Source: a virus
Length of the DNA: 26,184 nt
Direction: 5' to 3' (one strand)
Virus record (IMG/VR): IMGVR_UViG_3300000116_000124
Coordinates: 3,521-29,704 of that record
The notes under the pieces were generated by a model. The model ran no database searches. It was not told the origin of the DNA and was given only the letters and a program-made list of their open reading frames with translations. The number at the start of each line of letters is the position of its first letter. Positions within the stretch are counted from its first letter, which is position 1. The position numbers were made by a program, and so were the translations under genes. This document shows positions 1,617-24,688 of this stretch, one piece after another.

Positions 1617-3110
1617 ATGGCACTAATCCCAGGCGGGAGTTTTCCCGCGTCAATAACGCCTATGCCAAACCAAGTTCTTGTTCAGGATAATTATATTAAT
1701 TTCCAGGACATAGCAGGTGGTTTTAACCAATGGGCACAACAATATCTACCTGAGCTTTATGAGCAAGAGGTAGAAAGATACGGAAACCGAACATTAGCTG
1801 GTTTCTTGAGAATGGTAGGCGCTGAAATGCCTATGACATCTGATCAAGTTGTTTGGACTGAGCAAAACAGATTACACGTCGCATATAACGATGTTGCCGT
1901 TGCTGCTGGAGCTAATTCAACAATAACCGTAACAATAACTCCAGGTACTGGTAACCCAGCAACTTCAGCTATTAGAGAAGGTAACACAATTATTCTAACT
2001 GATAATGCTACAGGTCTTGTATCTGCTAAAGCTTTAGTTACAGATAGAACTTCTGGTGCTACTACTAACGGTTATACTATTGATTGTATATTATATGAAA
2101 CTACTGCTGCTGCTATTCCAGCTGCTATTACAGGTGGAACTTGTAGCTTATTCGTATATGGTTCTGAATTTCCAAAAGGAAGTAACGGAATGGCTGGAGC
2201 TATCGAGCCAGGTGTTACTACTTTTGTTAACTCACCAATTATCTTAAAAGATAACTACGAAATAAGTGGTTCTGATGCTGCACAAATTGGATGGATCGAA
2301 GTTGCTACTGAAGACGGTACTTCTGGATACTTATGGTATCTAAAAGCTGAGTCTGAAACTAGACTAAGATTTGAAGATTATATGGAGATGTCAATGGTTG
2401 AAGGTGTACTTCAAGCTAACGTAAACGGTAACACTCAATTCCCTACTGCTGCTTTTGGCCCAGGCTCTGCACAGCAAATTAAAGGTACTGAAGGTTTGTT
2501 TGCTGCTATTGAAGCTAGAGGTAATGTATTCCAAGGCTTTGCCGGAGCTGCTGCTCCTGGTTCAGGTGCTTTAGGTGATTTTGATGCGATCCTAAAAAAC
2601 TTAGACAAGCAAGGTGCTATTGAAGAAAACATGTTATTCTTGTCAAGAGAAACTGCTCTTGATTTTGATGATATGTTAGCTGCAACAAACGGTGGATACA
2701 ACTCTACTCAATCTGCTTCTTATGGTTTATTTGACAATGAATCAGAAATGGCGTTAAACTTTGGATTTTCAGGTTTTAGACGAGGTTCTTATGACTTCTA
2801 CAAGACTGATTGGAAATACTTAAACGATGCTACTACTAGAGGATTGTCTAAGCAAATTGATGGTGTGATGATACCAGCTGGTACATCTACTGTATACGAT
2901 CAAATGCTAGGATCAAACATCAGACGTCCTTTCTTACACGTAAGATATAGAGCTTCTGAAACTGAAGATAGACGATTTAAAGCATGGATCACTGGATCTG
3001 TTGGTGGTGCTTACACTACTGATTTAGATACAATGAGAGTAAACTTTTTATCTGAAAGATGTTTAGTAACTCAAGCTGCTAATAACTTCGTGTTATTCAA
3101 AGGAGCTTAA
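1617..3110 (+). CDS. Major capsid protein (HK97-fold family)
   Basis: 497 residues, close to the usual size of major capsid proteins in crAss-like and related marine phages. The N-terminus (residues 1-64) has a helical segment QQYLPELYEQEVERYGNRTL followed by EMPMTSDQVVWTEQNRLH (70-87), a pattern I associate with this capsid family. Residues about 95-200 are Thr/Gly/Ala-rich and look like a beta-strand insertion. The C-terminal third has many Gly/Tyr/Trp positions, as in an HK97 A-domain/P-domain core. It forms the icosahedral shell around the genome. The gene starts 17 nt after the scaffold-like gene, behind an A-rich leader with no Shine-Dalgarno site. Codon choice is noticeably less A/T-biased than in neighbours (many GCT, GGT, AAC, TAC), consistent with high expression. 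The fold is inferred, not shown. Confidence 0.84.
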   Translation: MALIPGGSFPASITPMPNQVLVQDNYINFQDIAGGFNQWAQQYLPELYEQEVERYGNRTLAGFLRMVGAEMPMTSDQVVWTEQNRLHVAYNDVAVAAGANSTITVTITPGTGNPATSAIREGNTIILTDNATGLVSAKALVTDRTSGATTNGYTIDCILYETTAAAIPAAITGGTCSLFVYGSEFPKGSNGMAGAIEPGVTTFVNSPIILKDNYEISGSDAAQIGWIEVATEDGTSGYLWYLKAESETRLRFEDYMEMSMVEGVLQANVNGNTQFPTAAFGPGSAQQIKGTEGLFAAIEARGNVFQGFAGAAAPGSGALGDFDAILKNLDKQGAIEENMLFLSRETALDFDDMLAATNGGYNSTQSASYGLFDNESEMALNFGFSGFRRGSYDFYKTDWKYLNDATTRGLSKQIDGVMIPAGTSTVYDQMLGSNIRRPFLHVRYRASETEDRRFKAWITGSVGGAYTTDLDTMRVNFLSERCLVTQAANNFVLFKGA

Positions 3111-3140: not shown

Positions 3141-3521
3141 ATGAGCGCATATATAAAAGGATTAAAATCAGCTGGAACTGCAACTGCAGCTCCAACTTTT
3201 GACTTAATCAACGTTGACGGAGTTAACAAAGTAAGTTTTACAGGATCTGCTGGATCTAGCCACGTATTAGTATTACACTATGACGGTTTAGTAGTAGACG
3301 CTGCTGGAACTGGTTATGTTGCACCAAGCTTAAACATTGCTTTGCCTGACACTAATACGTCATCAACTACAGTTATAAGAAATGCTTTTGCAGATGCTAT
3401 GAAAGCTGCTGTTCAAGCACCAGGAAGTATACCTGATTTATTCCCTGCTCAACCTAACGGTGAGTTTGGAGTTAATCAAATAATTACTTCTGCTACATCT
3501 TCGTTTGAAGCTGTTGCATAA
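3141..3521 (+). CDS. Small capsid-adjacent protein, possible head decoration protein
   Basis: 126 residues, Ala/Ser/Thr/Val-rich, predicted mostly beta, with no cysteine and few charges. It starts 30 nt after the major capsid gene and ends 14 nt before a strong terminator, so it is likely transcribed with the capsid gene and at a similar level. Small beta-rich proteins encoded directly after a major capsid gene often bind the outer capsid surface as decoration or cement proteins; that role is inferred from size, composition and position only. I do not recognise a named family. The leader TAAAATTATGA lacks a Shine-Dalgarno site. Alternatives are a small head-completion protein or a minor virion component. 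Confidence 0.6.
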   Translation: MSAYIKGLKSAGTATAAPTFDLINVDGVNKVSFTGSAGSSHVLVLHYDGLVVDAAGTGYVAPSLNIALPDTNTSSTTVIRNAFADAMKAAVQAPGSIPDLFPAQPNGEFGVNQIITSATSSFEAVA

Positions 3522-6406: not shown

Positions 6407-9400
6407 ATGCAAAATCGTTTTCAACACACATTTACTAAATCTAAAATGAATAAAGATTTAGATGCTAGATTAATTGCTAATGACGAGTATAGAGACGGCG
6501 TTAATATATCTGTTTCAAGAGCTGAAGCTGATGATGTTGGTGCGTTAGAAAACATACTAGGTAACTCCTTAATAAGCTCAATAGCTAGTTCTTCTCCTTT
6601 TTTAATGCAGACAATAGGTTGGTATTTTAATCCTGACAACGATAAATTATATTTGTTTGATACTAACTATCAAGACAACTCAAACGATCAAATTTCAAGT
6701 TTTGCACCAGTAGGATCTTTACATAGAATAATTGTTGTAGACCCAGCTGCTCAAACTTTTTCTGTTATAGTTCAAGGTAGATTTTTGAATTTTTCTTGGA
6801 ATAGCCCTATATTAGATATTGCTATATTAGAAAATTTAATGTTTTGGACAGATTTTAGAAATCAACCAAGAGTCATAAATATAAAAACAGCTGAAGCAAA
6901 CACAACTTATTACAACAATGAAGACCACGTTTCTGTGGCAAAATATTATCCTTATAAACCTATACAACTAACTAATGAACAAGTGGGAAAAGCTGGGTGG
7001 ATTAATGACAATAACACGTATGAAAGCGCATTTGACGGTTTAAATATATATAATTTTTTCTTAGTTGCAAAATCTGGAACTCCTACATGGGGTGTTTCTG
7101 TAGCTTTTGAAAAAATAATCGGTAACATAAGCTATGATTCTAATGGTGATTTAAAAACTTTTGCTCCAAATATAGGTTTACAAGGTTACGTTAAGGGGGC
7201 TGACAATAATTTGTGGGACTTTAAAGTTGCAAATGTTGAAGTAGATCCAACTGGTAGTACTTACCCGTCTCCATACAATGGAGGTTATAAAATTTCTATA
7301 GATAGAGATTTATCAAACGCTCTTGCCTTAGGAGCTGGAGATGGTGGAGCTCCAACTGACCCAAGTAAACTTTTATACCTAATAGATCAAACTTCAAAAA
7401 ATGTTAGTTCACCTTGGCTTGATGAGGATCAAGTTAAATTAGAAGTAAAAACTGTTTCTAGTTCAGTAGGTGGACTTTTAGTCTACTCAAATACAGCTGG
7501 AGCTCCATTTGCTCAAGCATTGTATGCTAAAGGAACAAATACACAAGCCGCTGGGTTAGGCACTGATGTTTTTAAAATACTAAATCATTTTCCAAAAAAC
7601 GATAACCCTACAGGAACTGCTCCGCTTTTAAATAGCACTGGCTTTCCTAGAATAATGTCTCCTAAATTAGATCCATTAGATTATTATGTTGTAACTGGTT
7701 TAGTTCCTGTCGACGGATCAGGTAGTTCTGGAACGCTAGGGTTTTCAATATCTAAATTAAGTGGTTTTGTAGACGGGGAATTAACGTCAATTGCACCAAA
7801 TACTATATTGGCGGGAGGCGATTTAATTTCTATACACTGGCCTAACAAGTTTTATAATTACGAATTTCCTGGTGATTCTAATTTTTTAAAAGAAAAGTTT
7901 GTAAGATTTGCTTATAGGTTTAAGTACGATGATGGACAATACTCTTTAATATCTCCCTTTACACAAAGCGTTTTTATTCCAAAGCAAAAAGGTTATTTTT
8001 TAAAAAAAATAGGTAAACAAAAAACAACTGGAATAAGCGAAAACAACTACGTACCTCAAGAAAATACTTTTGGAGAAAACACCATAAATGATTTTATGGT
8101 TAACGAAATCACTCAATCAACATTAAAGATCTCAACAGAATATAATGTTAACCAATTAGCTGATAAATTAAAAGTTTCTGAAATAGATATACTTTACAAA
8201 GAGTCAGATACTAATAACATAATGGTTGTAGAAACTTTAAAAGTTACAGATTCATCTATTACTCAAAATTCAAGTAAATTCATTGAATACGTTTATCAAT
8301 CAAGAAAACCAATAAAAACTCTTAGGTCAGCGGAAACAACTAGAGTTTATGACTTAGTCCCTACAAGAGCCAAAACTTTATCTTCAGCAGGCAATAGAAT
8401 AATATATGGAAACTTTTTTGATAGACCAACTTCACCACTAGGTTTAACTTTTTTTGCTTGTGCAAATCAAAAATTTACTCCTGCAACTACAACGCAAGTT
8501 AATAGATCAACAGGTGGTAACCAGTATAATCAAAGTCCTTTTTTACCTAATAAATATTCAAATGTTTCTTATCCTAACTCAAGTTTAAAACAAAACAGAA
8601 ATTATCAAGTTGGTATAGTGCTGCAAGATAGATACGGAAGATCTTCTGATGTTATATTGTCTAATTTTTCAGAAACTAATTTTACATTAAGAACTGGATC
8701 TTACAAAGAAGATCCTTTAACGTTTTTTGGATCAACTCTTTTTCATGAATATTTACCATCAGTAATAAGTCCTTTAACTCCTTACGCTGAAATTACGCAA
8801 TCAAATAAAGTTTACTCAGGAATAGTTAATTGGCCAGGAGACTCTTTAAAAGTATTATTTGTTGAACAAGTACCAAGATCTGTTACAGGAGTATCTGGTT
8901 ACCCAGGTCTTTATAAAGATCCTTTTGTAACTTCTACAATGGCAAATGCAACAATTTCACCTGGTAGTTACATAGACGTGCCTACTGGTGGTATAGTTGA
9001 CAGTGTACAACCTGGTATGGAAGTTTTTTGGACTATAGGTCTTACGGAATACTCTGCTTTTGTTCAGTCAGTTATTGTTTTAAATAATGCTACTACAAAC
9101 AGAATAAACCTTGTTAATGACGCAGGTGGCAGTGTTGGAGCGCAAGGAGATAATATTATACCTGCCTTTCCAAATACTAGTGTATTTGAATTTTATGAAG
9201 TTAACAATCCCATTGGTTGGTATTCTTATAAAATAGTCGTTAAACAAACTGAGCAAGATTATTATAACGTATATTTACCAAGCCTTTTAGATGGAGCTCC
9301 AGTAATAAAACCTTTTAGTCTAAACGTTCATTTTACTATTAATTCTAATGTTGCAAATATGCAGCCTATTGGAGATATGGAGTATTTAACATTTCCTCTT

Positions 9401-11254
9401 TTACCAGGTATGAAATTAGTAACAGCAGGTGGAAGAACTTATTTTATAAATAATATATTAAATTACACTCAATTTGAAATATCTCAAAATGCTGCCGCTA
9501 CTGAAGGTACTGGTAGTGGGACAAGCAGTGACCCATATGTTGGCGTTGCTACAGAGTTTTCTACATTGTCGTCACCTGTAAACACTACTACTCTTATAAC
9601 TGACAACGCTAATAAAGTACCACCAGGTCTAAATGAGGTAACTCCAGTTCAACAAAGTTACTCTACTAGTGATGTTCAATTAATACCTAGATATGCTTTT
9701 TCTAACAAATGGTCTGTAACTTCTGGAGATCCTTATAATACTACTAATATAGCATCTATGCCTATATTTCCAGGTACTCAATTTAGTAAGGTGCAATCTA
9801 TAGGAAATTTTGAAAATTTATTTCCTAGGGCAAGCTACAATGGTCTTTACAATGCTGATGCAGATCCTCCAACAGCGACTATTGAAAATCAATTTGATAT
9901 AGGTGAAAGATCAGGATTAGCCAAGCCAACAGCAGAAAAAGAAACTATTGCAGCTCTTTACGAAACAACTCCTGTAAAATCAGAATTAGATATATACTAT
10001 GAAACTAGTACGTCTGGAACTGTAAATGACTTAAACAGCCTTGTAAGAGACAATTTAATAGTACCTCAATTATTAGTTAAATATCCAGATAACTCAGCTG
10101 CTAACTTTGTAGGTGGTACAGACATAGGAATAATATCTGTAGACGAGAGTTTAGATTTTACAACAACGCCAACTTTACAAAAATTTCAAATAGTAGATAG
10201 TGAAGGCGGTTTAATTACTTATACCAATGCGGAAAAATTTGGTATAACAACTGCTTTATATGGAGATGGTGCTAGCGTGAGTGGGACTCCTTATACTGTA
10301 TCTCAATCAGCAGATGCAACAGAACAAGGTAATTCTGTTTATTTAATAAAAGCTACAGCAAATAACTCTTTTTATAGTGGATCTAATGCTAATCAAAATG
10401 TTATTGATTTTAATATTACTTTTGATTTTTTACAATTTGGCGTATTACCTATAAATTATTCTATACCAGTAGAAACTAATGTGCAAAATATAGCTCCTCT
10501 TAAAAATACAGCTTTCGTAAATCAACCAACTGTTGAATATGTATTTTTCCCAGGTGATGGCGCAGATCCAGCGCCAAGACAACCTACCTCTGTCCCGGGA
10601 GCTCCATCTACGTGGACTAATACAAATGGTAATAACACTAGTTTATCGCAATCGACCAATGGTGGAAATGCTAATAACGTTAGCGCTGGAGAAGAATTAA
10701 GCTGGAGTATATGGATAGATGCTAATAACAATGGAGTATACGTGAATGCTACTCAAAACCCAATACAAGATTTAGATTTAACAATATCAGTTCCAACTAC
10801 AAACTCTCCTAATGCTAAAACACAAAGAGTTTTTAATGTTGGTCAAGTTTCTAGTACTTATAGAAATACAACTATAGGTGTTCAAATTAAAGCTATAGAT
10901 CAAAATGGAAATGGATTAGCAACAGTTGTTAGTAGCTTTAAAGTTAGAATTATAACTCCTAGTTATAAATTATTAAAATATAGAGATGGAACAGTAACTT
11001 CTGGAGCTAACTACCCTTGGGGTTTATTATACAACGGTGGAAATGTTAATGTTCCTTTCCCAAGTCCGCTACCTCCAAGCGGAGCTCAATATGGAAGTGG
11101 CCAAGGTATGGCAGGTGTTATGACTAGCTCTACAGGTGATATTACTTTAACATCTGTAGGAACAGGGTTTAACATAGGTGATATTATTGGAGCAGGAACA
11201 GGTAATTTTCCAGGGAGTATAAATCCTTTATATACCGTGCAGTTAGATACATAG
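6407..11254 (+). CDS. Large tail stabilisation protein, P22 gp10-like N-terminus
   Basis: 1615 residues. The N-terminal signature TKSKMNKDLDARLI..DEYRDGVNI followed by DDVGALENILGN (residues 11-53) is the hallmark, in my experience, of phage stabilisation/tail-hub-type proteins related to P22 gp10 and found in crAss-like and marine podoviruses. The rest is rich in beta-strand, Asn, Ser, Thr and Gly, with aromatic residues typical of a repeated beta architecture, and has very few cysteines. A strongly Asn/Ser/Pro-rich stretch lies around residues 1385-1450. Such proteins plug or stabilise the tail base under the portal. It follows ring protein 2 by 4 nt. The C-terminal 300 residues look Ig- or fibre-like and could face outward. 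The N-terminal assignment is more secure than any role for the large C-terminal part. Confidence 0.74.
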   Translation: MQNRFQHTFTKSKMNKDLDARLIANDEYRDGVNISVSRAEADDVGALENILGNSLISSIASSSPFLMQTIGWYFNPDNDKLYLFDTNYQDNSNDQISSFAPVGSLHRIIVVDPAAQTFSVIVQGRFLNFSWNSPILDIAILENLMFWTDFRNQPRVINIKTAEANTTYYNNEDHVSVAKYYPYKPIQLTNEQVGKAGWINDNNTYESAFDGLNIYNFFLVAKSGTPTWGVSVAFEKIIGNISYDSNGDLKTFAPNIGLQGYVKGADNNLWDFKVANVEVDPTGSTYPSPYNGGYKISIDRDLSNALALGAGDGGAPTDPSKLLYLIDQTSKNVSSPWLDEDQVKLEVKTVSSSVGGLLVYSNTAGAPFAQALYAKGTNTQAAGLGTDVFKILNHFPKNDNPTGTAPLLNSTGFPRIMSPKLDPLDYYVVTGLVPVDGSGSSGTLGFSISKLSGFVDGELTSIAPNTILAGGDLISIHWPNKFYNYEFPGDSNFLKEKFVRFAYRFKYDDGQYSLISPFTQSVFIPKQKGYFLKKIGKQKTTGISENNYVPQENTFGENTINDFMVNEITQSTLKISTEYNVNQLADKLKVSEIDILYKESDTNNIMVVETLKVTDSSITQNSSKFIEYVYQSRKPIKTLRSAETTRVYDLVPTRAKTLSSAGNRIIYGNFFDRPTSPLGLTFFACANQKFTPATTTQVNRSTGGNQYNQSPFLPNKYSNVSYPNSSLKQNRNYQVGIVLQDRYGRSSDVILSNFSETNFTLRTGSYKEDPLTFFGSTLFHEYLPSVISPLTPYAEITQSNKVYSGIVNWPGDSLKVLFVEQVPRSVTGVSGYPGLYKDPFVTSTMANATISPGSYIDVPTGGIVDSVQPGMEVFWTIGLTEYSAFVQSVIVLNNATTNRINLVNDAGGSVGAQGDNIIPAFPNTSVFEFYEVNNPIGWYSYKIVVKQTEQDYYNVYLPSLLDGAPVIKPFSLNVHFTINSNVANMQPIGDMEYLTFPLLPGMKLVTAGGRTYFINNILNYTQFEISQNAAATEGTGSGTSSDPYVGVATEFSTLSSPVNTTTLITDNANKVPPGLNEVTPVQQSYSTSDVQLIPRYAFSNKWSVTSGDPYNTTNIASMPIFPGTQFSKVQSIGNFENLFPRASYNGLYNADADPPTATIENQFDIGERSGLAKPTAEKETIAALYETTPVKSELDIYYETSTSGTVNDLNSLVRDNLIVPQLLVKYPDNSAANFVGGTDIGIISVDESLDFTTTPTLQKFQIVDSEGGLITYTNAEKFGITTALYGDGASVSGTPYTVSQSADATEQGNSVYLIKATANNSFYSGSNANQNVIDFNITFDFLQFGVLPINYSIPVETNVQNIAPLKNTAFVNQPTVEYVFFPGDGADPAPRQPTSVPGAPSTWTNTNGNNTSLSQSTNGGNANNVSAGEELSWSIWIDANNNGVYVNATQNPIQDLDLTISVPTTNSPNAKTQRVFNVGQVSSTYRNTTIGVQIKAIDQNGNGLATVVSSFKVRIITPSYKLLKYRDGTVTSGANYPWGLLYNGGNVNVPFPSPLPPSGAQYGSGQGMAGVMTSSTGDITLTSVGTGFNIGDIIGAGTGNFPGSINPLYTVQLDT

Positions 11255-11287: not shown

Positions 11288-13216
11288 ATGGCAAATACAT
11301 TACCTTTAATTGAAGTAGAATTTTTTAACTGTATGTGGAATAAAAGAATATTAACTCCACAACCAAACAAGCAAACTAATGCAGTGACTGTTCCTGGTAG
11401 CACAGGTATGGCTGCTACTAATGTATATCCATTAAATAATGTATACGCACCTCCTTTAACTTATGTTAATTCTGGTACAAATAAATTTCCTACACTTCCT
11501 TATACTGAGAGTAGTACAACCGCATTAAGTGGATCTGTTGTTAAAGAAAACACATATATAGAAGAGTCTAGAATTAGAGGTGGATACAACAATGTTCAAA
11601 TGGACTTGGGCGCTAGAGCTTACTTAAATGAGGATGAGCCGCTGCAACAACATAGATTAAACACTTTAATATATTCAGGTGTATTTAACTCTTTAACAGG
11701 TATAAACAGAACCAATGAGTTTCCTGTAGGAACAAATATAACTAGATCAGCGAATCCACAATACAATAGTATACAAAAAATATACGCAGAAGAAAACAAC
11801 TTAGTTGTTCTTCAAGAAGACAAGTGTAGTAGGTGCTTGATAGACAAAAACGCTATATACAATGCTGAAGGTGGTGGTAGTGTAACTACTACAAATCAAG
11901 TTTTAGGTGAGATAATTCCTTATACTGGAGAATATGGAATAAGTAAAAACCCAGAAAGCTTTGCTATATATGCCTATAGAAAATATTTTGTAGATAGACA
12001 TAGAAACGCTGTTCTTAGACTATCTGGTGATGGCGTGACTGAAATATCTGAATACGGAATGAGAGATTATTTTAGAGATCAATTAACTCCTTTAACTGAT
12101 AATTATACTAATACTTATACTAAAATACTTTCTGGCGTAGCTGGGATTGATTCTAGTACTGCCTCAACGTCTATAATTGGTATGGGTTCTAGCAGTACAA
12201 TGGGTTTAAGTATTAATTATTTTTTAGGAGCTGAAGTATATTGGAGATCCAGCAGCACTTCTTCATGGGTAGACACAACGGCAAAAGTTACTGGAATTGG
12301 TAACCTGGCGCCAACTATCGCAGGAACAGGATCAATTTTTTTAGATAAAATACTAGACCCTACCTTTTTTGCTTCTGGTAACGTTAATGAAATTAAGTTA
12401 GTTGGCAGATATAGAAGTAGAATTCCAGCGGGTTATGATATATACAACAAACAGTATGTTCTTTCGATACAACCAAATAAAACTATTGAAGACTCTACTA
12501 ACGGAAATTTAAGAAGAGATTTTACTTATTACACTGTAGGTTTTGATGAAGCTATAAACGGTTGGCCTAGTTTTTACACTTATAGACCAGCTCAAATAGG
12601 TAGTTTAAAAAATACTTATTACACTTCTAATAATTACGATTGGAATGGTAGTGGTAATTCTACTTTAGGAGTTTTTCAACATTACAATGACGCTGTACCA
12701 AGAGGTCAGTTTTATAGTATAGACAATCCTTCTACAGTAAGTATAGTTGCAAACTCCCAACCATCTCTGCAAAAAGCTTTTTTAACAATAGACTATGAAG
12801 GAGATAGTGGTTGGCAAGTCTCTTCAGTTGAATCTGACCAAACTGGCTCTAATAGAGTGTTAACACAAAACACGGGTGTTTGGAATGGTGATTGGAATTT
12901 TTTCAAAGATCAATCAACAATAATATATAGTTACGCTGCTGGTGCATATGATAGCTTAGGAAATATAGGGACAGCTGCAAACCCAGTTAATGCCCCTTTA
13001 CTGAGAGCTGGTTTTGACAGAAAAGAAAATAGATATGTTGCTAATTTTATAAATACATCAACAGCTAACAACGCGGAAGTATTATATGGTAATCAAATTT
13101 CTGGATTAAAAGGTTATTATTTAGATGTGACTTTATCAACTGATGGAATAACTAATCCAGGGGCAATGAAAGAGCTATACGCTGTAGGTTTAAGTTACAA
13201 CGTTTCAGCTAGGTAA
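11288..13216 (+). CDS. Tail protein (crAss-like tail/hub family)
   Basis: 642 residues. Recognisable segments are IEESRIRGGYNNVQMDLGARAYL (about 91-113), QQHRLNTLIYSGVFNS, IYAEENNLVVLQEDKCSRCLIDK (about 165-187) and EYGISKNPESFAIYAYRKYF followed by HRNAVLRLS and ISEYGMRDYFRD. I recall this pattern from tail proteins that sit next to the gp10-like stabilisation protein in marine and crAss-like phages, sometimes as one fused gene. The composition is beta-rich with Asp/Asn/Gly turns, which would fit a propeller or tube/hub subunit. It follows the 1615-aa gene by 33 nt, with no terminator between them. A CxxC pair at about residues 179-182 is unusual because cysteine is otherwise rare in these tail proteins. 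Exact role (hub, nozzle or muzzle) is not resolved. Confidence 0.68.
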   Translation: MANTLPLIEVEFFNCMWNKRILTPQPNKQTNAVTVPGSTGMAATNVYPLNNVYAPPLTYVNSGTNKFPTLPYTESSTTALSGSVVKENTYIEESRIRGGYNNVQMDLGARAYLNEDEPLQQHRLNTLIYSGVFNSLTGINRTNEFPVGTNITRSANPQYNSIQKIYAEENNLVVLQEDKCSRCLIDKNAIYNAEGGGSVTTTNQVLGEIIPYTGEYGISKNPESFAIYAYRKYFVDRHRNAVLRLSGDGVTEISEYGMRDYFRDQLTPLTDNYTNTYTKILSGVAGIDSSTASTSIIGMGSSSTMGLSINYFLGAEVYWRSSSTSSWVDTTAKVTGIGNLAPTIAGTGSIFLDKILDPTFFASGNVNEIKLVGRYRSRIPAGYDIYNKQYVLSIQPNKTIEDSTNGNLRRDFTYYTVGFDEAINGWPSFYTYRPAQIGSLKNTYYTSNNYDWNGSGNSTLGVFQHYNDAVPRGQFYSIDNPSTVSIVANSQPSLQKAFLTIDYEGDSGWQVSSVESDQTGSNRVLTQNTGVWNGDWNFFKDQSTIIYSYAAGAYDSLGNIGTAANPVNAPLLRAGFDRKENRYVANFINTSTANNAEVLYGNQISGLKGYYLDVTLSTDGITNPGAMKELYAVGLSYNVSAR

Positions 13217-13227
13217 AATTAAATTAA

Positions 13228-13629
13228 ATGAAAATAAGAAAATTAACAGAGTCTGATTACGAGACTTTAGAAAAGTGGTGGAAAGCCTGGAAATGGCCAC
13301 CAATAGAAAAAGATTTTTTACCAGAAAATGGAACTGGTGGATTTGTAATAGAAAAAGAAGGAGTAATGATAGTTGCTGGATTTGTTTATATAACTAATTC
13401 TAAGGCAGTTTTGTTAGAATGGATAGTATCTAACCCTGATTACAAAGAAAATGATAGAGACATGGCTATAACAGTTCTTATAACTTCTGTAGAAAAAATA
13501 GTTAAAGATTGGGGATATAATTATATATTTACAATTGGTAGAAATAAAAGTTTAATTAGCAAGCATAAAAAATTAGGATGGCAAGTAGATGAAAAGCCAT
13601 CTCACGAAATAGTAAAAAAATTAAAATAA
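13228..13629 (+). CDS. GNAT-like acetyltransferase-fold protein
   Basis: 133 residues. It has the order expected of a small GNAT fold: MKIRKLTESDYETLEKWWKAW at the N-terminus, strands GGFVIEKEGVMIVAGFVYI (37-55) and AVLLEWIVSNP (60-70), a long helix from about 75 to 95, then YIFTIGRNKSLISKHKKLGW (99-118). The final strand-helix part, where the second substrate usually lies, is well formed. The canonical acetyl-CoA loop (Q/R-x-x-G-x-G/A) is not seen before the long helix; NDRDMA occupies that place. It may therefore bind CoA differently or may have lost catalysis. The gene lies between tail and internal-virion genes, an odd place for a metabolic enzyme but one where I recall similar proteins in marine phages. 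It could modify a virion or host protein; the substrate is unknown. Confidence 0.68.
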   Translation: MKIRKLTESDYETLEKWWKAWKWPPIEKDFLPENGTGGFVIEKEGVMIVAGFVYITNSKAVLLEWIVSNPDYKENDRDMAITVLITSVEKIVKDWGYNYIFTIGRNKSLISKHKKLGWQVDEKPSHEIVKKLK

Positions 13630-19000: not shown

Positions 19001-22000
19001 ACTGATTTAGTAGAAATGAATCAGGTTAAAAACAAAAGTGGTTTTGAAAAGTTTGAAGAAGGTAATCCACCAAATATAGAAGCTTTAACTGAAAAATACG
19101 GAAGAAAAACAGCTTCTCAAATAATGAATTCATACAAAAAAGGTTCTAATGCGGCTAATGTAGGTAATGATATATTTTTATTTCAGAAAAATATAGATCG
19201 TAACATGGCTAATACCATTCAAAAGACAGAATCAGAAATAGCTGCAGTAGCGCCTATGCACGAGCTTTTGCATATTCAAAATAGAAAAGCTGGATTAGTT
19301 AAAGACGATGTAGTTGTTTCTCAAGCTAATAGAGCTATAAAAGAATTAGATGGAGAGCTAGACGTTGCTTTAGCAGGCGGTAGAGTTACTCAAGAGCAGT
19401 TTGATAATTTTCAAGCTAGAAAAAAAGCTTATACAACTAGCAAAGGAGTTAATGTAGAAGAGTTATTAAACTTATACGGAGATTTTGTATCTATAGGAGT
19501 GTTAAGCCCAAGTAGTTTAAACAACATGTTTGGTATAAAAAATACTTTATCAACTTTAGTTAACAAGTTTAATCCTACTAACCAAGCTTGGTTGTTTCCT
19601 ATGAAGACTGGTAAAGATGTGTACGGGTATTTAGATAGTTTTCAAAAGTCTGCTAAAGAAATGGATGTTGCTATAGATGAAGATGACAAGTCTAGTAAGT
19701 TTTTAGAGCAAAAATCTAACTTAGCTGCTTTAACTCAAGATTTTGATATGGCCACGCCTAAAGGTAGAAGAGCTTTTTTAAATGAAAAACTAGTTAAAGA
19801 TGCTGAAGGTAATTTTGTATCTGACTTGAATCAATCTGAGTTTGGTAAAGAAATAGGTGGAATTATAGAATCTACAACTAAAAGACTATATGATAAAGTG
19901 CCTTCTGATTTAAAAAGAGGTATTAGTAGACAAGATTTTAAAAATGATTTAATAACTTTAGCTAGTACTTTAACGCAACAAGAGTTTGATCCTAGTAAAC
20001 AGGATCTTGATAAGTTTATAAGCAATAGATTGAATCTAAGAGCCAATAAGCTTGCTACAGATACGTTTGGTCAGGAATTTCAAGATGACATCACAGAAGC
20101 CAAAGATGTCGCGATAGATGAGTCTGACGATAGACCAGCAGAAAAAGAAGTTAGAAAGTCAAAATTAAAAGATAGACTAGTTACTAATGAAGATCAAAAG
20201 AAAAATTTAGACAGAGCTTTAGAGAAAATAAGAAACCAAGTTAATAGCTTGCCTATAGACAGTTTAAATTTTAAAACATTAAAAGACTTAGCAACTAGAG
20301 AAGTTCAAAAGATGTTTGGCATAGACCCTAAGCCTGGTAATTTAACAAAGAAAGATGTAAACAATGCTCAAGCTTTTATAAATAAAAATGCAGACGCTTT
20401 AATAGCTATGTTACCTCAAGGCGCTACACCTAGTGGTACTTCTACTGGTGTACAACAAGTTTTATTAAATGAGTTTTATAGAAAAGGTGATAGAGCTTCT
20501 ATGGCTAAGACAGGTACTAAAGCTGGGCTTGCTGTGCAAACTAAAAGAAATGATATAACACCAAGTGAATTTAAAGAAGTTTTTGGTATAAGACCTGCTG
20601 GTGAATCTAATGTAAGTGATAGGAACACTAGCGCTAGAGTAAAAGCTTTAGTTTCTCAAACAGAAAGAATGTTAACTAATCAAGAGGTTAGACAAGCATT
20701 GTCCAAAGAAGGAAGAGATATACCTAGCATACTAGCAGAAGGTAAATCTGAAGTGATGGAGTCTAAATCTATAAATGAACTGTCTCCAGAACAAATAGAA
20801 CTTTATGATAAAATATCAAATGCTAGAGGTATTAATGATGTAGCAAAGATATTAAATCTTGATCCGGTAACAGTTAATGACGAAAATAGAGAGGAAAAAC
20901 AACTAGCTATACTACAAGCTATAAGAGATCATGGATTAAGCGTTAACGTTTTTAAGTCTGCTATGCCTGCTTCTTCTGGAGCCGTAAGATTTGCTGTGAA
21001 AAAGAAAAAAACCGAAAAACAACTAGACGGTTATATAGCTAAGAACAATATAAAAGCAAAAGAAGGAGATTATTATTATAAACTAACTAATGGCGAGTAT
21101 GTTTTAGGGCAAAGAGTTTTAGATAAAGATGGTAAACAAGCTTTTGATAAAAAAGGTAAAAAAAGATTTTTACCTCCAGTAGATAAAGATGGTGTTCCAT
21201 TAACTAATTTAGTTGCAAAAAAAGGAAGACTTTATTATGGCGTTACAGATCCTGCTTATATTACAGCTTTAGAAAGTGCGGTTCCAGACTCTCAAAAACC
21301 TAAAAGAATAACAGTAAAAGGTAGAATTACAAAAGAATTTTACGATTCTAACAAAGAGCAAAGTGATATGAACATGGATATACTTGAAGATGTAGCTACC
21401 CAATTAGGTAAAGCTGTAGCGGACGGTATGAATCCATCTTTAGCAGCTTTATTAATAGCTCAAGGTTATCAAGCAACTGCAGGTCTTATAAAAATATCAG
21501 CACCTTTTACTACTGTTAGTAAATTTTTTGAACATGGTTTAACACCAAAACAACGTACAGGAGTTAAGTACAGAGAAGAACATAACCCTCCAGCATCAGT
21601 AATTGGTGCTACTTTAATAGCTGCTATAGTAAATAATGAAGTAGCTGAAGTATTTCCTTTTATTAGAAAAAATTATTCTCAAACTCAATTGTCAAAATTA
21701 GATGATGAAAAAATTGATCAAGCTAGATTGGATGCTACGCTTCCAGAAGGTTTTAGTATATTTAATAATCCAGCTATAAGACTAGCTAAGTCTGGTATAA
21801 ATTTAAATAGCTTAGTAAACATTAGAACAGGAATAACAGTAGCAGAACAAATAGGTATAGGTGTTTCTGAAGAGTTTGCTAATATCCCAGATGTTATTGC
21901 ATTACAAAACGAGCAATTAGATTTAATAGAAAAAGGTAAATCAATAGAAGAAGCTAACGCCGATATACAAGCATTTTTACCTATATCAAAAGCGATGAAA

Positions 22001-24688
22001 GAGGCTTCTGATGTTACAGTTGCTCAATTGAATGAGTCTAAAGTTTTGAATGTTAATGATAACATGACAACTCAAGATCTTTTAAATAAAGCAGCTACTA
22101 TAGATGCAGCACTAGCTTTAGCTAATAAAGGTAATAAAAAAATAAAGAAAATTAGAGTATTTGATTTTGATGACACTATAGCAAAAAGTAACAGCTTAGT
22201 TTATTACACAAAACCTAATGGCACGCAAGGAGAATTAACAGCAGAACAGTTTGCTTCTAAAGGTGCAGAGCTAGTTAATGAAGGTGCTGTAATGGATTTT
22301 TCAGATTTCAATATAGTTAGAAACGGTGAGCGTGGTCCATTGTTTGAAGTAGCACAAGCTATAAAAGAGTCTAGAGGAAATGAGGATTTATTTATACTAA
22401 CAGCTAGAGCACCAGAAGCTCAACAGGCTATATATCAATTTTTAAAAGACGAAGGTTTAGAATTTAAAATGGATAATATAGTAACTCTTGGCAACTCAAC
22501 AGGTGAAGCTAAAGCAAACTGGATGATAGATAAAGCAGCTGAAGGCTATAATGATTTTTATTTTGCTGATGACGCTTATCAAAACGTTAAAGCAGTTCAA
22601 GATGCTATGTCAGTTATAGATGTTAAATCAGAAGTTCAACAAGCTTTGATAAATGAAAGCGTTAGTTTAAATGATAATTTTAACAAAATCATAGAACAAA
22701 AAACTGGTATAGCTTCAGAAAAAAGATATTCAGAAGCCAAAGCTAAAGTTAGAGGAGAGAAAAGAAAAAAATTCCAATTCTTTATTCCTTATTCTGCTGA
22801 AGATTTTATGGGATTAATATACCCATTATTAAGCAAAGGTAAATTAGGTGACAGCCAGTTAGCTTGGTTTAAAAAGAATTTAATAGATAAATTTGCTAAA
22901 GCTCAGTTAAATTTACAACAAGCTAGAGTTACATTAATGGAAGACTTTAAGAAATTAAAACAAGATCTTAATGTTCCTAAAGATTTATCTAAAGAATCTG
23001 CTGATGGTTTTACAAATGAACAAGCTGTAAGAGTTTACTTGTGGAATAAGTTAGGCTTAACAATACCCGGATTGTCTGCTACAGATACAAAAGAACTAGT
23101 TGCTTCTATAGAAAACAACCCTACGTTAAAAACTTTTGCTGATAAATTAGCTCAAATAAATAAAGATCCTTATCCAGCGCCACTAAAAGATTGGTTAACT
23201 GGTACTATTACAACAGATTTAATGAGAGGATTAAAAGAAACTAAAAGACCTGAGTATTTAAAAGAGTGGCAAGAGAACGTCGATGTAATATTTAGTCCTG
23301 AGAATTTAAACAAATTAGAAGCTGCTTATGGTCCTCGATATAGAGAGTCTTTAGAAAATATATTAGCTAGAATGAAAAGTGGTAGTAATAGAATACAAGA
23401 AGGCAATAGATTAAGTAATAGAATACTTAACTATATTAATGGATCTAATGCTGCTATAATGTTCTTTAATACTAGATCTGCTATACTGCAAACAATATCT
23501 AGTATAAACTTTATGAACTGGAGTTTTAATAATCCAGTTAAAGCTGGTGCTGCTTTTGCTAATCAAGGTCAATACTGGAAAGACTTTATGACATTGATGA
23601 ACTCTGATTTTTTAAAAGACAGGCGTAACGGTTTAAAAATAAATATAACAGAGTCTGAAATAGCTGATGCTGCTAAAACCTCTAAGAACAAAGCTAAAGC
23701 AGTTTTAAACTACATATTATCTAAAGGTTACGCACCAACTCAATATGCAGATAGTTTTGCTATAGCTTCTGGTGGTGCTACTTATTATAGGAATAGAATA
23801 AATGATTTAGTAAAAAACGAAGGTATGCCTATCGTTGAGGCACAAGAGCAGGCTATGCAAGAATTTATGGAGCTTACAGAGGAAAACCAGCAATCTAGTA
23901 GGCCTGATAAAATATCTCAACAGCAGTCTAGTGATTATGGTAGATTAATACTTATGTTTGCTAATACACCTATGCAATATGCTAGGTTACAGAAAAGAGC
24001 TTTTCAAGATCTTGTCAACGGTAGAGGTGATTCTAAAACTAATGTAAGTAAAATAATATACTACGGTGTAGTTCAAAATATTATATTTAACGCTTTACAA
24101 CAAGCTGTTTTTGCTTTAGGTTTTGGTGACGAAGAAGAAGACGATAAGCAAAAGAGTAAACGTGCAATTGGCGTAGCTAACGGCATGGCTGACTCATTAC
24201 TAAGAGGTTTAGGTATTGGTGGTGCAACAGTTTCTGTGGTTAAAAACTTTTTACTAGATATATACGAAAGATCTGGAAGAAAAAGACCTGAGTATGTCGA
24301 CTCAATATATAAGTTACTACAATTTTCACCACCTATAAGTTCTAAAATATCTAGGTTAAGAGCTGCCGCTTGGTCGTTTGATAGTAAAAAAAGAAGGCAA
24401 GAAATGTTAGACAAAGGATTTAGTTTAGATAATCCTGCTTACATGGCAGGAGCAAAAGTAGTTTCAGCTACATCTAACGTACCTTTAGATAGAGTTCTTT
24501 TAAAATTAGATAACTTGTCTGGAGCTATGGATGAAAATAATGATTTGTGGCAAAGAATAGCTTTAGCATCTGGTTGGCCTGAGTGGCAATTAAAACCTCC
24601 TACTATTTACGATACAGCTAAAACAAAAAGCTCTAAAAGAAAAGTAAAAATAAGAAAAAGAAAAGTTAAAAAAAGAAAAGTTAAATAA
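16052..24688 (+). CDS. Giant multidomain virion protein (2878 aa; zincin motif, HAD phosphatase domain)
   Basis: 2878 residues, the largest gene here, starting 1 nt after the 572-aa gene. In order: an N-terminal helical piece ending QSLADAMIEKYPEYADQI, similar to small domains at the start of many phage internal proteins; a long charged helical region; Gly/Ala-rich hydrophobic segments near residues 525-545 and 605-650; an HELLH zinc-protease motif at 1070-1074 with a possible third ligand at E1136/E1137; Lys-rich helices; a complete HAD domain (about 2033-2190); a conserved C-terminal half-kilobase-length helical part with a hydrophobic stretch near 2668-2692; and a Lys/Arg tail (KRKVKIRKRKVKKRKVK). 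No DxDGD-type RNA polymerase signature is present. Position suggests the gp16-like ejected protein: carried in the capsid, entering the cell with DNA and acting on envelope or host factors. Close relatives recur in marine phages, but activities are unproven. Whether both enzyme domains are active is an inference from intact motifs. Confidence 0.8.
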   Translation: MPYTIEQFAKAIREKYNAYQDVDDQSLADAMIEKYPEYADQIISEPPLKVEEAISYETVNNDLAKEESELFSEANVRLANDKEKELKKLRAEDVKYKKARDRYRPKDWDYKEVSIEGEDGQVKTYPYAEIHNRYGDVNEYIKRFQGKAKLIDNTPENIVNEINDLNNPELQEKLKKSQEERVNTIKRLEKEEADRINSQEDFYARKNNINKLVSAKKLSQDISKIDDNSEESIKILGQDMFSSIENRLDSAAANAMANDRIDDDFLNTYFDAKNIGITKARELYNKYKEYKDSDGESFDVDYVKAQRPNAMAAATRKAKEKNMELFFIDNDYDEGDRRVVTEFLADELDGPVSAQELRQAYKDYRKEDEDLKGIPGKDFGTFAANKLFDKKYEEINNLNKGISEDVEIYKKESDKFKFDNQKYISKVNSINEKLQALKDKGINSQSTQLEIDEYNGLIADYNKVKTSMSESGYFEGEEILANQLRSIKNRSEVLMDKSAKLDDVALAGEVAVKDFSNFNRMQLQLEKAFIGGGAMLGSSLIKGFFELGKSEEELESPFYQDLKAMKGAAVNYNEDLGAQLEEDFVGNLTTDDVTGGNIGYYMSQMFANNSPSILATVPMLASGGIGGLLVGSGTRIAGAKVAQAGLSKAAGKLAQASFFTMGYGGKLSDMEIANKNAQGQIDGLNKELESEDLTAYERIEKEKQIDNLNQVLSIPQWKRSTNALWSGSVELLTERLGSLSYITNLNKFSTVAGTKPFKKLMYGGMNTLYNVGIELGEETTAQIAGNLGDIVLLDEDKSIVDGIDKDFLANTVFTSMTIQGPGMGGNMYNMFKDEMATRSERKTTNKRRTEFYELTLDLQDRASLTKKQQKEKVARQKEILEAEAFDDVKATNKLNRLSKEEQLALFDLNRQRRKKLRDLRSEGAKGDTKTAQQRKNQLVSEYKKIDDQRDNLLNKNKRKNQKKAKDNVDPAQYEFNIGMNEFYTDLVEMNQVKNKSGFEKFEEGNPPNIEALTEKYGRKTASQIMNSYKKGSNAANVGNDIFLFQKNIDRNMANTIQKTESEIAAVAPMHELLHIQNRKAGLVKDDVVVSQANRAIKELDGELDVALAGGRVTQEQFDNFQARKKAYTTSKGVNVEELLNLYGDFVSIGVLSPSSLNNMFGIKNTLSTLVNKFNPTNQAWLFPMKTGKDVYGYLDSFQKSAKEMDVAIDEDDKSSKFLEQKSNLAALTQDFDMATPKGRRAFLNEKLVKDAEGNFVSDLNQSEFGKEIGGIIESTTKRLYDKVPSDLKRGISRQDFKNDLITLASTLTQQEFDPSKQDLDKFISNRLNLRANKLATDTFGQEFQDDITEAKDVAIDESDDRPAEKEVRKSKLKDRLVTNEDQKKNLDRALEKIRNQVNSLPIDSLNFKTLKDLATREVQKMFGIDPKPGNLTKKDVNNAQAFINKNADALIAMLPQGATPSGTSTGVQQVLLNEFYRKGDRASMAKTGTKAGLAVQTKRNDITPSEFKEVFGIRPAGESNVSDRNTSARVKALVSQTERMLTNQEVRQALSKEGRDIPSILAEGKSEVMESKSINELSPEQIELYDKISNARGINDVAKILNLDPVTVNDENREEKQLAILQAIRDHGLSVNVFKSAMPASSGAVRFAVKKKKTEKQLDGYIAKNNIKAKEGDYYYKLTNGEYVLGQRVLDKDGKQAFDKKGKKRFLPPVDKDGVPLTNLVAKKGRLYYGVTDPAYITALESAVPDSQKPKRITVKGRITKEFYDSNKEQSDMNMDILEDVATQLGKAVADGMNPSLAALLIAQGYQATAGLIKISAPFTTVSKFFEHGLTPKQRTGVKYREEHNPPASVIGATLIAAIVNNEVAEVFPFIRKNYSQTQLSKLDDEKIDQARLDATLPEGFSIFNNPAIRLAKSGINLNSLVNIRTGITVAEQIGIGVSEEFANIPDVIALQNEQLDLIEKGKSIEEANADIQAFLPISKAMKEASDVTVAQLNESKVLNVNDNMTTQDLLNKAATIDAALALANKGNKKIKKIRVFDFDDTIAKSNSLVYYTKPNGTQGELTAEQFASKGAELVNEGAVMDFSDFNIVRNGERGPLFEVAQAIKESRGNEDLFILTARAPEAQQAIYQFLKDEGLEFKMDNIVTLGNSTGEAKANWMIDKAAEGYNDFYFADDAYQNVKAVQDAMSVIDVKSEVQQALINESVSLNDNFNKIIEQKTGIASEKRYSEAKAKVRGEKRKKFQFFIPYSAEDFMGLIYPLLSKGKLGDSQLAWFKKNLIDKFAKAQLNLQQARVTLMEDFKKLKQDLNVPKDLSKESADGFTNEQAVRVYLWNKLGLTIPGLSATDTKELVASIENNPTLKTFADKLAQINKDPYPAPLKDWLTGTITTDLMRGLKETKRPEYLKEWQENVDVIFSPENLNKLEAAYGPRYRESLENILARMKSGSNRIQEGNRLSNRILNYINGSNAAIMFFNTRSAILQTISSINFMNWSFNNPVKAGAAFANQGQYWKDFMTLMNSDFLKDRRNGLKINITESEIADAAKTSKNKAKAVLNYILSKGYAPTQYADSFAIASGGATYYRNRINDLVKNEGMPIVEAQEQAMQEFMELTEENQQSSRPDKISQQQSSDYGRLILMFANTPMQYARLQKRAFQDLVNGRGDSKTNVSKIIYYGVVQNIIFNALQQAVFALGFGDEEEDDKQKSKRAIGVANGMADSLLRGLGIGGATVSVVKNFLLDIYERSGRKRPEYVDSIYKLLQFSPPISSKISRLRAAAWSFDSKKRRQEMLDKGFSLDNPAYMAGAKVVSATSNVPLDRVLLKLDNLSGAMDENNDLWQRIALASGWPEWQLKPPTIYDTAKTKSSKRKVKIRKRKVKKRKVK
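19230..19470 (+). other. Zincin metallopeptidase motif within the giant protein
   Basis: HELLH at residues 1070-1074 supplies the two zinc-ligand histidines and the catalytic Glu of the zincin superfamily, in the context APMHELLHIQ, where a hydrophobic strand precedes the helix as expected. VEELLNLYGDF at 1135-1145, some 60 residues later, gives candidate gluzincin-type third ligands (E1136 or E1137). Cleavage of a host or virion protein during entry or assembly would fit, but no substrate is indicated. Confidence 0.6.
22148..22640 (+). other. HAD-superfamily phosphatase domain within the giant protein
   Basis: All four HAD motifs are present in order: motif I VFDFDDT with nucleophile D2038 and acid/base D2040; motif II LTAR with T2117; motif III K2154 in EAKANW; motif IV FADD with D2173 and D2174. 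Spacing (about 79, 37 and 19 residues) suits a small-cap HAD enzyme. A phosphatase or phosphotransferase acting on a nucleotide, polynucleotide end or phosphoprotein is possible. An active set of residues in a structural protein is notable. Confidence 0.82.

Follow-up and report, generated by a model that had tools for sequence, protein, structure and literature searches.

What is a phosphatase domain with a full set of catalytic residues doing inside a giant protein of a marine phage, and does it reach the host cell together with the phage DNA? The question is raised by IMG/VR virus record IMGVR_UViG_3300000116_000124, of whose 29,704 bases a stretch of 26,184 (positions 3,521 to 29,704; hereafter the window) was analysed. 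An initial annotation had read HAD phosphatase motifs in a giant open reading frame (ORF) of this stretch and had described its product as a virion protein of the ejected type. The best overall explanation, moderately favoured here, is that a catalytically competent HAD phosphomonoesterase begins the conserved C-terminal part of a giant cargo protein of the polyvalent type.

The HAD domain and its catalytic residues

The four motifs named in the initial annotation, DFDDT, LTAR, a lysine and FADD, were all found where it had placed them, in one uninterrupted ORF, and D2038 and D2040 are taken here, by HAD convention, to be the nucleophile and the acid/base, respectively. PHROG 415 (polynucleotide kinase) matches along the domain (E 2.3e-8), as it matches 38 of the 45 HAD family members scanned; Pfam DUF2608 matches with E 4.4e-4, under its cut-off, an NCBIfam search returned nothing over cut-off, and phmmer and profile searches of the PDB sequences gave no HAD match of weight. 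The AlphaFold2 model, built from a 45-row alignment, has a Rossmannoid HAD fold (mean pLDDT 86, pTM 0.76), whose top structural match in VIA-align is the 3'-phosphatase of T4 Pnkp (Z 12.6, 2.5 A over 126 residues, 16% identity), followed by other T4 Pnkp entries and bacterial Pnkp1 (Z 12.2). Other HADs come close behind, among them 8a0m (Z 11.8), LNS2-type Nir2 (Z 10.8) and Lem4 (Z 10.0), the nearest lying within 1-2 Z of Pnkp, and a Foldseek search of the model against the PDB gave no match at E <= 1e-3. Class B acid phosphatase was rejected as the closest family, Acid_phosphat_B matching 4 of 45 members and AphA reaching Z 9.7, and a chance set of motifs is ruled out by the PHROG 415 match, the predicted HAD fold and the structural match to Pnkp. 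By sequence and model, amino acids (aa) ~2033-2197 of the giant are a HAD phosphatase domain with a complete catalytic set and a confidently predicted fold.

An IMG/VR search with the HAD domain found 98 relatives, of which 80 were kept. Fifty-one of these are part of long ORFs of 1146-3700 aa, some of them truncated where a contig stops, and the other 29 are encoded by short ORFs of 172-364 aa. A FastTree tree parts these 29 standalone domains from the 52 embedded ones (the 51 relatives and the window), with support of 0.996 on one side and 0.681 on the other. In the 81-row alignment of the window and its 80 relatives, T2117, R2119, K2154, D2173 and D2174 are invariant, D2038 is aspartate in every row, and D2040 is aspartate in 80, the remaining row (L049) having a gap at a domain inserted after motif I, where DFDGT can be read by eye. 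This first set is biased, its retrieval patterns having included VFDFDDTI and DDAYQNVK, and because it was retrieved partly by HAD motifs a second set was fetched with the C-terminal module of the giant (query, window 23402-24604). The 47 loci so obtained, 10 of them on contigs already in the first set, include 45 that are assessable, L108 and L121 being cut by contig ends before or within the HAD domain. All seven residues (D2038, D2040, T2117, R2119, K2154, D2173 and D2174) are kept in 44 of the 45; frequent loss of D2038, D2040 or the lysine among relatives, which the initial annotation had given as the sign of a non-catalytic role, was not found. Milder changes of motif I (DFDQT in L120, DADDV in L122, DFDGT in L049) keep both catalytic aspartates. 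The exception is L105 (aa ~2164-2250), in which an in-frame deletion has removed most of the domain, motifs I-II included, with D2173N in what is left and the flanks kept; barring an assembly error, this suggests that at least one phage can do without the phosphatase.

In an alignment of 44 complete giants, conservation is low over the first two thirds of the protein (column identity ~0.15-0.37 per 50-residue block), and aa 2001-2850, comprising the HAD domain and the C-terminal module, are the only well conserved part; the block at aa 2151-2200, inside the HAD domain, tops all others with a column identity of 0.81. The ratio of nonsynonymous to synonymous substitution rates (dN/dS), computed pairwise between the window giant and five relatives, is 0.11-0.17 in the HAD domain, 0.18-0.25 in the C-terminal module, 0.22-0.53 in aa 1300-1990, 0.21-0.41 in aa 1000-1300 and 0.37-0.74 in aa 1-560; dS is 0.8-1.8, near saturation, and the ratios are therefore rough. 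In all five pairs the lowest value belongs to the HAD domain, on which the strongest purifying selection in the giant falls. The earlier proposal that the intact motifs reflect selection for catalysis is thus supported by the 44 of 45 loci and by the five of five pairs, and the domain is probably catalytically competent.

The HAD domain of L049 is interrupted directly behind motif I, in the cap hairpin, by a P-loop domain (AAA_33, E 1.2e-9; Zeta_toxin, 4.3e-9). In L110 (8330-8800) the same hairpin holds ~130 residues with a weak match to ART-PolyVal (E 0.024, below cut-off), and the cap loop thus resembles a hot spot for insertions. The L049 ORF at aa ~2546-2770 presents a kinase-in-phosphatase arrangement. 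Inserts of ~150-200 residues just behind the HAD domain were found in L039/L103 (one contig), L083, L084, L114 and L126, each preceding a second copy of a VLDVxDVKSxVQ-like sequence; a Pfam search of the L114 insert found nothing. The repeat is a possible trace of domain entry into polyvalent proteins. Near-complete loss of the domain in L105 and the insertion of other domains into the cap loop together suggest that the HAD domain is a passenger enzyme and not an architectural part of the protein.

The phage record collection contains hardly any member of the family. A tblastn search of its 50,697 records found no match with the window HAD domain or with the standalone HAD of L068, and one match, in an uncultured phage at 26%, with the standalone HAD of L080. 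Bacterial genomes yielded 14 HAD loci, all in metagenome-assembled genomes. Nine of these (L166-L174) look like phage contigs in bins, because the domain is in long ORFs of 1178-2914 aa and eight of the nine have the SAEDF motif of the C-terminal module.

Routes into the virion

The window phage is, by its gene content, a marine crAss-like podovirus. Its crAss-like character follows from the gene with the muzzle C-terminal domain, which lies in one block with a crAss-type major capsid protein (Table 1). This capsid protein, whose match to PHROG 13704 is strong and whose match to Crass_capsid is below cut-off, has counterparts in 85 phage records, mainly of Flavobacterium and Cellulophaga phages (41-50% identity among the matches listed). 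MW202828, the closest record by capsid, has the gene order of the window, running from terminase, portal and capsid through tail genes, an acetyltransferase gene and two ORFs to a 3860-aa giant at the end. It is from the capsid and muzzle proteins and this shared order that the podovirus is recognised and that the giant appears to stand at the crassvirus cargo-gene position.

Table 1. Features of the window and of the giant protein
Feature	Position	Strand	Detail
Major capsid protein	1617..3110	+	PHROG 13704, E 8e-90
Muzzle-protein gene	11288..13216	+	crAss_MUZ_C, E 1.2e-6, over cut-off
Small ORF	13228-13629		lies between muzzle and cargo genes, where MW202828 has an annotated acetyltransferase gene
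Two ORFs, 228 and 572 aa	13635..16050	+	between muzzle/acetyltransferase-like genes and giant; presumed cargo-gene position
Giant ORF, 2878 aa	16052..24688	+	carrier of the HAD domain; probable ejected virion cargo
HELLH (HExxH) zinc-metallopeptidase-like motif	19259..19273	+	aa 1070-1074, with conserved E1137
HAD phosphatase domain	22148..22640	+	aa ~2033-2197
Motif I, DFD in VFDFDDT	22163..22171	+	aa 2038-2042 = DFDDT; D2038 22163-22165, D2040 22169-22171
Motif II, LTAR	22397..22408	+	aa 2116-2119; T2117 22400-22402, R2119 22406-22408
Motif III lysine	22511..22513	+	K2154
Motif IV, FADD	22562..22573	+	aa 2171-2174; D2173/D2174 22568-22573
C-terminal module	22649..24600	+	conserved, predicted all-helical, adjoining HAD

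Gene order and relatives make it likely that the virion contains the giant and ejects it along with the DNA. A profile of the C-terminal module has a distant match in gene 74 of Tenacibaculum phage Gundel_1 (E 7.4e-11), which encodes a 2482-aa protein annotated as structural; a term search of the text of the Gundel_1 paper returned no occurrence of 'mass spec'. In crAss001, mass spectrometry has detected the cargo proteins gp45, gp46, gp47, gp49 and gp50 in the virion, and their ejection by way of the tail has been proposed (PMC10172136).

The standalone relatives suggest a further route. Twenty-one of the 29 begin with MKLLLENW[RK]x[YF][LI]xE/S (the slash marking the putative cut) and pass straight into SKLRVFDFDDT. 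The same leader is found on 51 ORFs in the standalone loci, and because these belong to 15 families that are without BLAST similarity once the first 20 residues are removed, it is not part of the HAD fold; 30 of the leader ORFs, in 14 families, have no HAD domain, some of the contigs being near-duplicates. At the DNA level, a degenerate pattern of the eight opening codons of the leader has 62 sites in 21 of the 29 records, as against none of the 29 for a reversed-pattern control. A hydrophobic-[LI]xE motif at residues 8-24 occurs in 42 of 51 leader ORFs; it is found in 54 of the 426 ORFs that lack the leader, and in 17 of 488 internal 17-mers. In the records of the 21 loci among L053-L076 that bear the leader, genes with no relation to each other open with almost the same codons (ATGAAACTCCTACTTGAAAATTGG), in the manner of a recombination cassette. 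Searched in the same way as a control, T4 ipII and ipIII, annotated internal virion proteins, share MKTYQEFIAE/A. The first ten residues of T4 IPIII direct its packaging, and gp21 cuts after L/I-x-E (PMC9026906). The standalone leader looks like a T4 capsid-targeting sequence (CTS) with a gp21 cleavage motif. Genes for both gp23 (E 8.5e-60) and the gp21 protease (E 7e-35) are present in the longest of the 29 records, at 195,690 bases; neither was matched in the other 28 standalone records, which are shorter and possibly fragments, and a downstream ORF is common to 17 of the 29 standalone loci, the 195,690-base record included. A second leader, M..KLKDILxE, is carried by the HAD protein and its neighbours in L077, L078 and L080, and occurs also in L213, L218 and L177. 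The evidence that T4-like phages, too, pack a HAD phosphatase is good, though not final.

Leader-tagged standalone relatives of the domain occur, in one T4-like phage at least, and the same enzyme thus appears to be packaged by two routes. It is these tagged relatives that are new here; literature searches gave no virion-packaged HAD phosphatase among the matches listed. Two further L053 products with the HAD-type leader, a 3'-5' exonuclease (8006-8893, E 6.9e-11) and a protein-kinase-like protein (8893-9951, E 3e-7, just under cut-off), are candidate co-injected effectors.

Two observations weigh against packaging and delivery. Some standalone HADs are without a leader (e.g. L226, L252, L253, L176 and L179), and the domain was not found in Gundel_1, Panino or MW202828, in a search run without a positive control. 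The description of the giant as an ejected-type virion protein is supported indirectly: cargo-like gene order, the structural match in Gundel_1 and the leaders of the standalone forms speak for it, as grounds for deduction and not as an observation of ejection.

Other features of the giant and its relatives may be recorded here. In the 44 aligned giants H1070 is kept in 43, E1071 in all 44, H1074 in 43 and E1137 in 43, and this HExxH motif and its downstream glutamate stand out as kept residues within an otherwise variable part of the protein. The giant ends in a Lys/Arg-rich tail (KRKVKIRKRKVKKRKVK, window 24630-24685), which is possibly DNA-binding. In the Panino record (PP540027) the N-terminal 39 aa of the giant are matched at 33699-33887 on the minus strand, just upstream of the coding sequence annotated 'tRNA methyltransferase' (28228-33717), and given this match the start of the Panino giant may be misannotated.

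Mechanism, substrate and competing explanations

Were the giant to enter the cell with the DNA, its phosphatase would work before any phage gene expression. The chemistry of these motifs, with aspartate as the nucleophile, is a general and established HAD mechanism. D2038 would take the phosphate from the substrate and the phosphoaspartate would be hydrolysed with the help of D2040 as acid/base, T2117 and K2154 holding the phosphate and D2173/D2174 holding Mg2+. The standalone relatives, including at least one in a T4-like phage, would be delivered by way of the N-terminal leader, which a gp21-type protease would remove. It is conceivable, if not quite probable, that the HAD family is a dedicated 'first-strike' enzyme placed in the virion by two unrelated phage groups, with a cap loop that also docks further enzymes (kinase-like, ART-like). 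If so, the use of the enzyme by two groups, as a domain of the crAss-like giant and as a leader-tagged protein of T4-like phages, means that its substrate must matter in the first minutes, before phage transcription. T4 Alt, IPI and the N4 RNA polymerase, all of them pre-packaged phage effectors, have each brought to light a host process in need of immediate control by the phage, and a phosphatase family seemingly packaged by two routes points to a phosphate-bearing molecule that is important at DNA entry. The leader offers a way to list, from sequence, likely injected effectors of uncultured T4-like marine phages, and a domain of ~190 aa makes the question directly testable.

The alternatives touch catalysis, delivery and substrate in turn. 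That the fold is a dead scaffold, kept for structure or binding only, is highly improbable and was rejected: L105, without motifs I-II and with D2173N, can be cited in its favour, yet the same locus indicates that the domain can be lost almost whole, and the retention of all seven catalytic residues at the other assessable loci and the concentration of purifying selection on the HAD domain, with the lowest dN/dS in every pair, are not what a scaffold leads one to expect. It is improbable, too, that the giant is not ejected but serves in the tail, in assembly or as an intracellular enzyme late in infection, with the HAD domain acting on metabolism or assembly. Room for such a role is left by the fold search with the C-terminal module, whose model is all helical and of low confidence (pLDDT 62.6) and whose VIA-align matches to the phage ejectosome 8vb2 (Z 4.1), the N4 vRNAP (Z 3.1) and the T7 core (Z 2.4) are too weak to count; the place of the gene in the capsid/tail block, the homology to a protein annotated as structural and the CTS-like leaders on the standalone forms all argue for the virion cargo.

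As to what such a cargo phosphatase acts on, the likeliest substrate, named tentatively, may be a 3'- or 2'/3'-phosphate on a nucleic acid or nucleotide, the kind of group removed by T4 Pnkp, and not one on a protein or sugar; it is preferred because of the nearest fold and PHROG 415, and the kinase-like domain inserted in L049 fits it. Set against this preference are the residues R176 and D254, which are essential in T4 Pnkp: no arginine is among the residues listed for the 81 rows at the R176 position, and at the D254 position no aspartate is among the six commonest residues of the 52 embedded rows, although it is present in 23 of the 29 standalone ones. Alignment to T4 Pnkp by hhalign is limited to 22 columns, the motif I stretch only, with a probability of 45. 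The RNA ligase PF09414 and a separate AAA_33 kinase (PF13671) were each found in none of 24 large records, which are fragments (controls matched in 6 of 14 and 14 of 14, respectively), and these results argue against a complete RNA-repair pathway; the RNA ligase PF09511 was likewise found in none of the 24, a result that shows nothing, since no control matched. Healing of RNA or tRNA ends, with the domain removing 3'-phosphates left by host anticodon nucleases before ligation as T4 Pnkp does, is a somewhat unlikely role: T4 Pnkp and bacterial Pnkp1 are the top structural matches, PHROG 415 is a polynucleotide kinase family, L049 places an AAA_33/zeta-type P-loop kinase within the domain, and HADs of the PNK-HAD and Swiss-army-knife types are known from phage RNA repair (PMC7824862 section 21); to these are opposed the negative searches for the ligase PF09414 and a separate kinase and the unconserved R176 and D254 positions. 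An injected anti-defence phosphatase, which would strip nucleotide immune signals (linear or cyclic oligonucleotides, ADP-ribose derivatives) or phosphorylated defence proteins soon after DNA entry, is unlikely on present evidence. An enzyme that arrives ready-made would be well suited to early counter-defence; T4 IPI, which carries a CTS, is injected and acts against restriction (PMC9026906, PMC3012670), and polyvalent proteins injected with DNA have been proposed to carry signal-targeting enzymes (PMC7824862, PMC5512222). The exonuclease and the kinase-like protein among the leader-bearing neighbours may be added on this side. Nothing ties the domain to a signal, however, and cyclic phosphodiesters are not usually opened by HAD phosphomonoesterases. 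The link to the nucleotide signals of anti-phage defence, raised by the initial annotation, is speculation, and a nucleic-acid or nucleotide 3'-phosphate would fit the nearest modelled fold as well as such signals, or better.

Comparison with known systems

The closest solved structure is that of the T4 Pnkp (pseT) 3'-phosphatase, with which the window domain shares HAD fold, motif order and a DGTLAK/DDTIAK stretch (41% over 22 residues). Unlike that separate intracellular enzyme, it is part of a giant cargo protein, with no kinase domain in the window protein, no conserved equivalents of R176 and D254, and no RNA ligase PF09414 found alongside. The T4-like relatives are standalone proteins of ~190 aa, in this respect like the Swiss-army-knife HADs (PMC7824862 section 21); they differ from these and from the PNK-HAD phosphatases in being apparently packaged as cargo.

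Crassvirus cargo proteins (crAss001 gp45-gp50, PMC10172136) are likewise large, encoded after the tail block and proposed to be ejected before the DNA. The likeness drawn here is one of gene position and size, and a term search of PMC10172136 returned no occurrence of 'phosphatase'. With T4 IPI, IPII and IPIII the standalone relatives have in common a leader that is shared by unrelated neighbours and ends in [LI]xE, and their longest record encodes gp21 and gp23; they are unlike the T4 internal proteins in that the leader differs from MKTYQEFIAE and the body is an enzyme and not a small inhibitor, their packaging and cleavage being putative.

The giant itself resembles, in its plan, the polyvalent proteins (Iyer et al. 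2017, PMC5512222), being very large, multidomain and probably injected, with a zincin-like HExxH motif, and its relatives bear kinase-like (L049) and weak ART-PolyVal (L110) insertions. A term search of the main text of PMC5512222 gave no occurrence of 'phosphatase' and three of 'had', which is the verb in the passages displayed, and the HAD domain appears to be an addition to the list of polyvalent-protein domains given there.

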